NCBI GenBank assembly: GCA_023251215.1
Contig: JAHEZF010000002.1
Coordinates: 1 to 23,371, forward strand
From: Sphingobacteriales bacterium
GTDB lineage: Bacteria > Bacteroidota > Bacteroidia > Chitinophagales > Chitinophagaceae
Direction of reading: 5' to 3'
Length of the DNA stretch: 23,371 nt
Positions 4,436 to 17,015 of this stretch are shown in pieces. A program made the translations under genes and the position numbers. Position 1 is the first letter of the stretch; every line of letters starts with the position of its first letter. The notes under the pieces are model-generated. The model was not told the origin of the DNA, did not search any database, and worked only from the letters and a program-made list of their open reading frames with translations.

Positions 4436-4511
4436 ATTATCATCAGGGCAGGTTAACTGGTTTACGGGAAAATTTGATAGTTATATCATCAATGTGTACG
4501 AAAATTGCCAT

Positions 4512-4549
4512 CTAACCCCCTGATTTTCAAAATGGGGTTTTCGTGTTAG
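4512..4549 (+). terminator. Possible terminator hairpin downstream of clpB
   Basis: Stem AACCCC (4514-4519), ATTTT (4523-4527), one-base loop region, AAAAT (4529-4533) and GGGGTT (4534-4539), with a CTG bulge on the left arm. An outer CTAAC/GTTAG pair (4512-4516 and 4545-4549) offers an alternative fold. It lies about 80 nt past the clpB stop and is followed by only a short T run (TTTTC), so termination is plausible but not certain. Confidence 0.45.
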
Positions 4550-4568
4550 GAAAATAGTTTTAGACGGG

Positions 4569-4599
4569 TTTGGCAGGGCATAAAAAAACATTACCTTCA
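4569..4599 (+). promoter_or_regulatory. Candidate Bacteroidota promoter for the DsbA-like gene
   Basis: TTTG at 4569-4572, a 19-nt spacer, then TACCTTCA at 4592-4599, close to the TAnnTTTG -7 consensus with the standard -33 TTTG and normal spacing. The predicted leader to the ATG at 4723 would be about 115 nt. Two mismatches in the -7 box keep this tentative. Confidence 0.4.
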
Positions 4600-4722
4600 A
4601 CCGGTTCGGAATTGTGACGGATTGGCATAAAAGCCTTTCTGTCAACCTAATGGCCGGAAATTTGTTAGTATAAACGAATCATAACCATAGACTGGGGATG
4701 AACTAAAAAGGAGAAATTTAAA

Positions 4723-5292
4723 ATGGCATTTAAAAAAGAAGAGATTATCATTATTGAACCAAAGGAAATTTTTGTGGGCAAAAAAGATGCTCCTGTTACA
4801 TTGATGGAGTTTGGCGAATATGAAAATGAAGATTGCGCCAAAGTCAATGAAGTTGTAAAGCAATTGCTGGAAGAATACGAAGGAAAAATAAAATTTCAGT
4901 TTCGTCATTTCCCGCTTACAATGGTACATCAGCGTAGCCTGAAGGCAAGTGAATCTGCCGTAGCGGCAGCACAGGAAGGAAAGTTCTGGGAAATGCACAA
5001 TGTGCTTTTCAACAACCGCCGCAACCTGGGCACTACCAGTTTGAAACTTCATTCAAAAGAAGCCGGAGTAAACAATAAAAAATTTTTGGATGAGTTGGTT
5101 AATGGTGTTTATGGCTGGCAGGTACAGGATGATCTCAAGGAAGGGATCAACAGGGGAGTAAAAGAGTTACCTGCTTTCTTCATCAACGATGAACCCTTTA
5201 CCGGTAAACCCACTTTTGCCAATCTTAGCGCAGCAATTGATTTGGCACTGAAAAAAAGTAAAAGAAAAACCCTGGCAAAACAGAGAGCTTAA
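4723..5292 (+). CDS. DsbA/thioredoxin-4-like protein lacking the CxxC nucleophile
   Basis: The 189-aa protein follows the DsbA-type thioredoxin plan: strand VTLMEFGEY, active-site helix, inserted helical domain (FWEMHNVLFNNRRNLG near 88-103), and a cis-proline loop KELPAFFIND with Pro at about 150. The family motif Y-x-C-P-Y-C is here Y-E-N-E-D-C (33-38). The first, reactive cysteine is Asn35 and only Cys38, the sole cysteine of the protein, remains. There is no signal peptide, so it should be cytoplasmic. It is unlikely to act as a dithiol oxidase; a chaperone, binding or mono-thiol role is inference. The start is fixed by AAAAGGAG at 4706-4713, an unusually strong Shine-Dalgarno for this phylum. 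A good terminator follows at 5319. Confidence 0.85.
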   Translation: MAFKKEEIIIIEPKEIFVGKKDAPVTLMEFGEYENEDCAKVNEVVKQLLEEYEGKIKFQFRHFPLTMVHQRSLKASESAVAAAQEGKFWEMHNVLFNNRRNLGTTSLKLHSKEAGVNNKKFLDELVNGVYGWQVQDDLKEGINRGVKELPAFFINDEPFTGKPTFANLSAAIDLALKKSKRKTLAKQRA

Positions 5293-11686: not shown

Positions 11687-13078
11687 ATGATCTCTTCGGT
11701 TAATGACTTTCAGAATCCTTTTTTTATCGGTATAGCGGGAAGTGGTATGAGTGCTATTGCTCAATATCTGAAAGGTATGGGCAAAAAGGTAAGCGGCAGT
11801 GATCGTTTTTTTATAGAAGGTAAATACAATGAAACCAAAGAAAAACTGGAAGCTGAAGGCATTCATTGTTTTTTGCAAAATGGGGAAGGGATTACAACTG
11901 CAACAGACCTCGTAGTTATATCAACAGCAATAGAAGATACTGTGGCGGAACTGCAAAAAGCAAAAGCGCTGAATCTTCCGGTTATTAAACGTGCCGAATT
12001 GCTGGCTTTAATAGCAAAAAGTAAAAAAACAATTGCTGTTGGAGGAACCAGCGGCAAAAGCACTACCACTGCCATGCTTTTTGAAATCCTGGAATATGCA
12101 GGATTGAAACCCAGCATCATTACCGGTGCTGGTCTGACAAGCATTATTAAAGACGGAAAGATCGGCAATGCAAAAGTGGGAACAGGCGACCCGATAGCTA
12201 TCGGGTGGTTGGTAATAGAAGCCGATGAAAGCGATGGTTCTATTATCGAATACCATCCTGAGATGGGATTGCTGCTGAATGTAGATAAGGATCATAAAGA
12301 GATTGAGGCACTGATGGAAATTTTCAAAACGTTTAAAAACAACAGCAGGTTATTTGTCGTGAATCAATCAAATTCTCTGGCAAGACAACTTTCACGAAAC
12401 ATTCAACAGGATTTTTCAACTGATCCAAACTTTCAAGCAGGATATATGGCGACTGATTTCAGGCAAAGTGGGTTTAGCATCTCATTTAAATTGAACGGAG
12501 TTGATTTCGGTTTGAATCTTGCCGGAAAACATAACATGGAAAATGCAGTAGCTGCTTCGGCAGTTGCTGCTCAACTTGGAGTTGATTTGAAAGTTTGTGC
12601 AGAAGCATTGAATAATTATCAAGGTATTTACCGTCGCCACCAGGTGTTAGGAAATAAAAATGGTATATGGCTGGTTGATGACTATGCCCACAACCCGGTA
12701 AAATGTGCAGCAGCGATTGAAGCTTGTCAGCCGGTGGCTCCTAAAGTTATTGCCTGGTTTCAGCCACACGGGTATGGCCCCACAAAATTTTTGCGCAAAG
12801 ATTTTGTGCAGGAGATTGCAAAAGTATTAAGACCCGAAGATGAAATATGGATGAGTGAAATATTTTATGCCGGAGGAACAACAACTAAAGATATTTCTGC
12901 CAATGACCTGATTAACGATCTGAAGGCACTGGGCAAAAAAGTTTTTTTTGCAGAAGACAGGAATGACTTTTTACCGGCAGTCAGATCTCATTTTACCAAT
13001 AACTGTGTATTGCTCTTAATGGGAGCAAGGGATCCTTCGTTGGAAAATTTTGCCAAACAAATATGGGCTGATTTATAA
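11687..13078 (+). CDS. Mur ligase family protein, MurC/Mpl-like
   Basis: A 463-aa three-domain Mur ligase. The N-terminal Rossmann domain begins GIAGSGMSAIAQYLKGMG (about 15-32) as in MurC/Mpl. The ATP loop is GGTSGKSTTTAM, where MurC and Mpl normally have GTHGKTTT. The carbamylated/Mg site region is VIEADESDGS (176-185), then LLLNVDKDHKE; the third motif is GKHNMENAVAA. The C-terminal domain carries WLVDDYAHNPVK, with Asn where MurC/Mpl have DDxxHHP. The closest family is UDP-N-acetylmuramate-L-alanine ligase or the murein-tripeptide recycling ligase Mpl, but the motif changes argue for a paralogue with a shifted amino-acid substrate. An 18-bp palindrome is embedded in frame at 12189-12206 and encodes PIAIG just before the conserved WLVIEADES. 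ATP-dependent ligase chemistry is probable; the substrate is unknown. Confidence 0.88.
   Translation: MISSVNDFQNPFFIGIAGSGMSAIAQYLKGMGKKVSGSDRFFIEGKYNETKEKLEAEGIHCFLQNGEGITTATDLVVISTAIEDTVAELQKAKALNLPVIKRAELLALIAKSKKTIAVGGTSGKSTTTAMLFEILEYAGLKPSIITGAGLTSIIKDGKIGNAKVGTGDPIAIGWLVIEADESDGSIIEYHPEMGLLLNVDKDHKEIEALMEIFKTFKNNSRLFVVNQSNSLARQLSRNIQQDFSTDPNFQAGYMATDFRQSGFSISFKLNGVDFGLNLAGKHNMENAVAASAVAAQLGVDLKVCAEALNNYQGIYRRHQVLGNKNGIWLVDDYAHNPVKCAAAIEACQPVAPKVIAWFQPHGYGPTKFLRKDFVQEIAKVLRPEDEIWMSEIFYAGGTTTKDISANDLINDLKALGKKVFFAEDRNDFLPAVRSHFTNNCVLLLMGARDPSLENFAKQIWADL
12189..12206. repeat. In-frame palindromic element ACCCGATAGCTATCGGGT
   Basis: An 18-bp perfect palindrome inside the Mur ligase gene. 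In frame it reads (G)D-P-I-A-I-G-W at residues 168-174. A related copy with centre AC lies at 16970-16987 in the small lipoprotein gene, also within coding sequence. Confidence 0.85.
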
Positions 13079-16559: not shown

Positions 16560-17015
16560 TCATTTATAATAACGGGTTGTGTCCATATCATGTTCATACA
16601 GGTACTTCAGGTCAATGAGCCACTCATCATTTACTTTCAGCACTTTTAACGTATCATGATCGTTCTTAAAGGAGTTGGAAAAAATAACAATCGTGGTGGA
16701 ATCATTCACCGGCTCCACTTTATGAATATTGATGGATGAACCGCGGTAACCATTCTTTGTATCCGCATCTGTTTTCCGGTAACTGCGTTCGGCGGCATCC
16801 ATGTATTGTATATTGGATGAATCGGGTAATAAATAAGTTCTCGCCTCGTCAAACTTTCCGTCTAATGCAGACCGGATAAAATCTCTTGCCGCATCAATAT
16901 CATTTTCCGGCTTACCGGGTGATTGGTTACTGGTGCAGGCACAAAAAGAAAGAAACAAGAATAAAATCCCCCCGATAACTATCGGGGCTATCGGGATGAA
17001 ACGGTATCCATTCAT
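16560..17015 (-). CDS. Small lipoprotein with NTF2/DUF4878-like domain
   Basis: 151 aa. The N-terminus is a long hydrophobic signal (RFIPIAPIVIGGILFLFLSF) leading to Cys25/Cys27 in SFCACTSN; Cys27 with -1 Ala is the likelier lipidation site, although the lipobox is imperfect. After a linker, residues about 40-145 have the helix then beta-sheet order of DUF4878/NTF2-like proteins: AARDFIRSALDGKFDEARTY, YLLPDS, SINIHKVEPVNDSTTIVIF, KNDHDTLKVLKVNDEWLIDL. The W-L-I-D-L end is typical. Such proteins probably bind ligands or are structural; no function is known. Residues 7-16 of the signal (IPIAPIVIGG) are encoded by a palindromic element (16970-16995). It starts 30 nt downstream of phoH on the same strand. 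Confidence 0.8.
   Translation of the reverse strand: MNGYRFIPIAPIVIGGILFLFLSFCACTSNQSPGKPENDIDAARDFIRSALDGKFDEARTYLLPDSSNIQYMDAAERSYRKTDADTKNGYRGSSINIHKVEPVNDSTTIVIFSNSFKNDHDTLKVLKVNDEWLIDLKYLYEHDMDTTRYYK
16970..16995. repeat. Palindromic element CCCCGATAACTATCGGGG plus half copy
   Basis: 8-bp arms CCCCGATA/TATCGGGG around AC (16970-16987), followed by an overlapping extra half site GCTATCGGG (16987-16995). It is the same element as at 12189-12206 and lies in the signal-peptide codons of the small lipoprotein gene, reading as IPIAPIVIGG. Confidence 0.8.

Follow-up and report, generated by a model that had tools for sequence, protein, structure and literature searches.

A short palindrome that has probably inserted in frame into protein genes of Bacteroidota

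A perfect 18-bp palindrome lies inside a MurC-type ligase gene of a Sphingobacteriales bacterium, where it corresponds to a net gain of five codons. Comparison with related sequences makes a mobile in-frame insertion very probable. The explanation that we prefer, with a probability of roughly 80%, is that of a minimal REP-like mobile palindrome, a bare 18-bp hairpin that would insert anew while removing a few nucleotides of its target; this estimate covers the whole explanation except for a single-strand hairpin step considered below. The window means here the whole stretch of 23,371 nucleotides that was analysed (contig JAHEZF010000002.1), and its relevant features are collected in Table 1.

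Table 1. Features of the window that bear on the palindrome
Feature	Position	Strand	Remarks
MurC-type Mur ligase, host gene	11687..13078	+	463 aa; TIGR01082, Pfam, alignment to solved MurC
18-bp palindrome ACCCGATAGCTATCGGGT	12189..12206		codons 169-173 (PIAIG), corresponding to a net 15-nt gain
Small lipoprotein-like protein (putative), host gene of the second copy	16560..17015	-	151-aa ORF
Second copy, C-CCCGATAACTATCGGG-G	16970..16987		palindromic but for central AC; minus strand reads PIVIG
Apparent half of an older copy (GCTATCGGGA)	16987..16996		directly adjoins the second copy

Abundance of the palindrome

An initial annotation had placed an 18-bp perfect palindrome in a Mur ligase gene, held that it was not there by chance and proposed counting it genome-wide. 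The palindrome is indeed found within coding sequence, and the count shows the motif to be hugely over-represented: the whole MAG to which the window belongs contains 72 copies of CCCGATANNTATCGGG and none of the reversed control, while about 0.004 copies are expected from its base composition. Allowing up to three mismatches, the window gives four strand matches, whereas 100 shuffles average 0.15. The presence of the palindrome is far beyond chance. An origin through chance, local slippage or faulty assembly might be brought to mind by the fragmentation of the genome (2,021,486 bases, 72% complete, 345 contigs) and by the many copies lying within degenerate tandem repeats, but its likelihood is negligible. 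It is rejected by the window shuffles and the reversed control; moreover, copies also occur in isolates and single-contig genomes (G195 and G404, for example), and one filled site is common to two species, G412 and G568 (loci L360 and L380).

The five-residue gain in MurC

The ligase matches Mur_ligase, Mur_ligase_M and Mur_ligase_C of Pfam, and its match to the TIGR01082 murC model (E 2e-94, 317 bits) falls under the model cut-off of 335. The palindrome encodes residues lying between GD and WLVIEADESD. It had been suggested that these residues, 169-173, result from a 15-nt in-frame insertion and would be missing from homologues, and the comparison supports this: exactly PIAIG is absent in 50/50 orthologues from other genomes, 25 of them close ones found among relatives and 25 obtained in a family-wide search. 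All 25 close orthologues (55-77% identical by tblastn) lack the five residues, and both solved MurC sequences seen aligned show a five-residue gap at the site. The empty site reads GA-n-TGG in 45 of the 50 orthologues. The net gain of 15 nt in genes was borne out, while the idea of a clean 15-nt insert was not, an 18-mer replacing about 3 nt being the better description.

Protein database homologues of the ligase add a further dimension. Among the best 120 of 4885, the window's own included, the other 119 were compared; 113 have nothing at the site and six have five residues, namely PIAIG (three times), PMAIG, PMATG and QFENG, as far as the proteins alone were compared. On a tree built without the inserted columns, the seven carriers, including the ligase of the window, need six changes, five of which are forced by well-supported branches. 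With six carriers among 119 homologues and no fewer than five changes on the tree, the MurC site has apparently been struck repeatedly, and repeated insertion at this one site seems the natural reading of the alignment; the same pattern could also be produced by repeated loss or recombination. AlphaFold models the ligase with a mean pLDDT of 85; residues 168-170 score below 50 and are located in a coil right before the strand formed by residues 174-178. Such a prediction fits a tolerant loop at the insertion point.

Other copies in the same genome

Of the 72 copies, 50 were read, in 386,963 bases that comprise the window and 40 contigs or parts of contigs; 38 of the latter had been picked for holding a copy. 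Nearly half of these copies (24 of 50) lie in frame within 21 ORFs of about 150 aa or longer, a count from which one 151-aa ORF and shorter ones were excluded. PIAIG is the reading in 17 cases and PDSYR in seven. The statement that no copy is found in the TAG frame is true for these 24 copies but only by construction, because the third frame reads TAG and is therefore barred from any ORF.

Pfam supports the identity of 18 carrier genes, MurC included. They encode CofH, saccharopine dehydrogenase, an epimerase, MnmE, PheS, HisS, ArgS, UvrA, RsmE, iPGM, PurH, RsmG, GldD and others. Comparison with orthologues from seven relatives revealed an exact five-codon gain in CofH (6/6), saccharopine dehydrogenase (6/6), iPGM (7/7), MnmE (5/5), RsmE (5/5) and PheS (5/5, one PheS having an extra one-residue gap), as well as at UvrA sites 1 and 4 (7/7 genomes each). 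For two further carriers, an amidohydrolase and an M23 protein, the exact gain was seen against only one of six and three of four orthologues, respectively, the remaining ones differing by another length. HisS, ArgS, RsmG and the middle UvrA sites were too variable for measuring the gain, and no orthologue from the seven relatives aligned at the PurH site. To judge from these alignments, the net gain is 15 nt where the loop length is conserved. The ArgS of genome G047 holds a motif copy of its own a few codons off (L291).

Several individual loci are worth describing. In one uvrA (L070, 10432-13353) the palindrome occurs four times, with a distance of 29 bp between two of the copies. The PurH copy is found at a questionable start and possibly lies ahead of the gene; here, upstream of or at the purH start (L077, 9600-9640), the copy is exactly central in an inverted repeat, GCGTGCCAC / GTGGCACGC.

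A second copy in the window itself had also been reported, in another gene at 16970, and it was found there, its letters being CCCCGATAACTATCGGGG and its symmetry imperfect at the centre. It looks as if this copy was nested in half of an older one (window 16970-16996). The 151-aa ORF that hosts it has no match in Pfam or NCBIfam, and its product may be read as lipoprotein-like from the N-terminus alone. The copy falls in this signal-peptide-like N-terminus, where homologues vary in carrying the insert: PIxIG or PD(S/N)YR is present in 16 of the 120 homologues listed, counting the record of the query itself. Homologous N-termini placed side by side read MKRYPFI-PIAIG-ILFLF and MKRYPFI-FLFLL.

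Distribution in Bacteroidota and a possible function

A scan of GTDB yielded at least 117 stretches with the palindrome; of the 80 matches listed, 79 are Bacteroidota by name and one is an 'uncultured bacterium'. Carriers, the window's genome being counted in each case, make up 22 of 99 relatives, 114 of 394 genomes of the family (with up to 112 copies per genome) and 44 of 395 genomes in a sample of the phylum. Copy number varies from 0 to 112 within genera, and sister species of carriers may have none. As a refinement of the initial reading, the element is patchy over Bacteroidota and not peculiar to the window's genome. Most copies are intergenic in a Flavobacterium-like genus: of the 37 read there in two genomes, 31 lie outside any ORF of at least 80 aa.

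Copies are also found in RNA genes, as seen among 12 loci searched with Rfam. An RNase P RNA (L114, RNaseP_bact_a at 4440-4846) contains a copy at 4479-4494, and Flavo-1 RNA was found with copies at five loci (L334, L353, L358, L359 and L364). The palindrome was also observed in 42 stretches of putative viral contigs (L203-L244), which may be phage or misassigned chromosome. The wider pattern CCCGAN{2,10}TCGGG is strongly enriched in genome G003 (184 against 15 in the control) and not in G033 (39 against 35) or G057 (5 against 22). G003 has its 184 CCCGA-loop-TCGGG hairpins without the CCCGATANNTATCGGG form, as though they belonged to a sister family with other loops.

A single sequence common to a phylum, forming a stable hairpin and often located between genes, might be taken for a conserved binding site or RNA signal (a terminator, a regulator or a nucleoid site) whose abundance reflects function under selection. 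We regard this as very improbable. The palindrome is missing from 351 of the 395 phylum genomes, sister species range from none to dozens of copies, and two dozen copies lie within protein genes of unlike function; moreover, a site arising through point changes would not produce a 15-nt gain. An intrinsic terminator is ruled out, as no T tract follows the hairpin: TTTT occurs within 8 nt after it in only 7/100, 3/190 and 0/74 flanks.

Structure of the unit and its flanks

The unit comprises 18 bp of the form N-CCCGATAGCTATCGGG-N', in which the outer bases are complementary. In 49 of 50 copies of the window's genome (57% expected) and 89 of 93 GTDB copies (70% expected), base -1 is complementary to base +1, while complementary pairs at the ±2 positions are rarer than expected (5/50 and 19/93, respectively). 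A at +2 is nearly absent, being found in 5, 3 and 1% of the flanks in three sets of copies. As a single strand, the unit forms a hairpin with 7 bp in its stem and 4 nt in its loop (-5.9 kcal/mol as DNA). That it might consist of two IS ends joined head to head was considered and rejected, given that half-sites CCCGATAG outside full copies are rare: the 387 kb read contain 14, of which some are decayed copies.

Direct repeats of at least 6 nt are present somewhere in the 24-nt flanks of 65/227 copies. Many copies are thus located in tracts of tandem repeats, in which DNA could be gained or lost through local slippage. After removal of the 16-mer, the commonest spacings are 13 (12 copies), 20 (eight) and 18 (seven); the first two equal 7n-1, in keeping with tandem tracts of 7 bp that have gained a net 15. 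Inverted runs of at least 6 nt flank 13 of 94 GTDB copies (permuted mean 2.6, largest 8), 5 of 50 copies of the window's genome (mean 1.4, largest 4), 4 of 45 viral copies (mean 1.8) and 5 of 36 copies in the Flavobacterium-like genus (mean 3.6, not raised). A wider hairpin around the 18-mer is rejected as a rule by the last of these sets; some copies, nonetheless, lie at hairpin tips, such runs being raised among the GTDB copies and slightly so among those of the window's genome and the viral ones. Degenerate 7-bp tandem repeats (for example GACTCAC, GAAAGAT and AACCAGC) were observed around many copies, at L026, L070, L089, L093, L099, L126 and L146.

Filled and empty sites and a putative mechanism

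Alignments of sister species in the Flavobacterium-like genus reveal intergenic sites in both filled and empty states. At one of them, compared in 20 sister species, five have a CCCGATA copy, two have a variant hairpin (TCCCGA-AGnC-TCGGGA) and 13 have none; three of the five CCCGATA carriers have identical flanks and perhaps represent one event. At another intergenic site, two species have a copy and three have none. Overall, 3-6 nt of target are lost where sites were compared: about 3 nt in genes and, between genes, 4 nt at five of six sites and 6 nt at the remaining one. A MITE of a classical DD(E/D) transposon would be expected to have a target-site duplication beside it; set against that expectation are these losses on the one hand and, on the other, the direct repeats present in the flanks of 65/227 copies. 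A loss of 4 or 6 nt rather than 3 means that a single fixed rule of insertion is not established.

On the preferred explanation of a REP-like mobile palindrome, the 18-mer would insert and, in genes, replace about 3 nt of the target, giving the net gain of 15 nt. It is possible, though we offer this step only tentatively, that the element moves as a folded single strand with the stem and loop given above, and an enzyme encoded elsewhere and recognising the hairpin would then handle the folded strand. Copies with a net gain of 15 nt in a tolerant loop and an open frame would be inherited, while the others would be purged; with two of the three frames open (PDSYR and PIAIG), the persistence of such copies in tolerant loops is what one would expect. 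It is tempting to go one step further, to a conjecture that we think somewhat more likely to be wrong than right: a hairpin-copying system of Bacteroidota, working with 18 bp and no spare sequence, might put a self-complementary 18-mer in place of some 3 nt of target, return to the same codons of essential genes and so leave the same small loop in dozens of housekeeping proteins and RNAs. To our knowledge, such an 18-bp unit would be the smallest autonomous-looking mobile DNA unit.

RAYT transposases as candidate movers

A RAYT (TnpA_REP), which is a Y1 HUH transposase of the IS200/IS605 type, might mobilise the palindrome in trans, and the palindrome would then be an ordinary REP. One comparison speaks in favour of this. 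Among 47 genomes selected by hand, Y1_Tnp was matched over its full length (E below 1e-15) in 19/24 high-copy and 5/23 low-copy ones, the latter comprising 20 without a copy, G832 with one, and G553 and G537, counted only by the wider pattern. A subclass of Bacteroidetes TnpA-Y1 with atypical flanking structures is also on record (PMC6006769). However, among 99 relatives that were not hand-picked, Y1_Tnp occurs in 12/22 carriers and 34/77 others (p 0.47), and no match was found in G000 (72 copies), G047 (54) and G087 (21), of which G000 and G047 are incomplete. The CCCGA-TCGGG hairpin lies within 500 bp of only 2 of 40 RAYT-like loci, 35 of which come from high-copy genomes, although a cognate gene could have been missed; neither GTAG nor CGTC tags are visible in the flanks of the copies. 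Several RAYT-like loci are flanked instead by different hairpins, with arms of 9 bp and TTnnAA at the centre, which are probably the REPs belonging to these genes. Overall, with the neighbourhood test negative and the link with copy number contradictory, a RAYT as the mobiliser is not upheld and appears unlikely; the search for a mobiliser, in which RAYT transposases were tested as the mover, found none. Hairpins such as CCCACGGTTTCAACCGTGGG were noted beside the RAYT-like genes at L452, L453, L455, L459, L460, L461 and L465.

Comparison with known systems and significance

The palindromic elements of Rickettsia (RPEs) measure 105-146 bp and are reported to occur in 19 reading frames and also in tmRNA and RNase P RNA (PMC2229807). 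The initial annotation had likened the palindrome to them, and for behaviour the likeness holds: both have in-frame copies in conserved protein genes (here MurC and others) and copies in structured RNA genes, RNase P RNA in both cases. In contrast to the RPEs of that report, the unit here measures 18 bp, the bases at ±2 no longer pairing; it adds only five residues and lives in Bacteroidota. The palindrome works like an RPE, yet given its size it is not one.

REPs inside genes are likewise in print, and PMC3733652 mentions uvrA genes struck more than once. Like the GTAG/CGTC REPs of that paper, the palindrome is a short high-copy hairpin, patchy between species and at times located in genes, and here, too, a uvrA carries multiple copies. 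Unlike them, it is perfect, has no spacer and lacks the GTAG/CGTC foot tag, its flanks instead showing A at +1 and few A at +2; in contrast to the GTAG REP or REPtron arrangement, no RAYT gene adjoins it in 38 of 40 loci. The TnpA-Y1 subclasses 2.4, with REPs inserted in frame in their own gene, and 2.6, mostly from Bacteroidetes and with atypical structures, were compared with the palindrome by description only (PMC6006769). The RAYT-like genes that we examined are flanked by hairpins other than the palindrome. A search of the open-access literature retrieved no paper evidently about this palindrome sequence; in PMC12548429, the matching string is a primer.

In-frame palindromes are already known from tagged REPs and from Rickettsia, where the elements measure about 100 bp; the same behaviour appears here with an 18-bp unit and in Bacteroidota. 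As numerous relatives in this phylum have been sequenced, filled sites can be set against empty ones, which makes the question of insertion directly testable, in particular the target, the net length and the return to one site. The copies also yield a natural collection of essential enzymes that either have or lack an identical five-residue insert, and they call for caution in annotating Bacteroidota proteins.

Finally, we would like to mention the cyanobacteria, whose HIP1 is a very abundant short palindrome of 8 bp that is not known to be inserted, and whose HIP1 genomes also have heptamer repeats, that is, degenerate 7-bp tandem repeats. The genomes considered here resemble them in combining an abundant palindrome with degenerate 7-bp tandem repeats. 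Unlike HIP1, however, the present palindrome is associated with 15-nt gains in genes.
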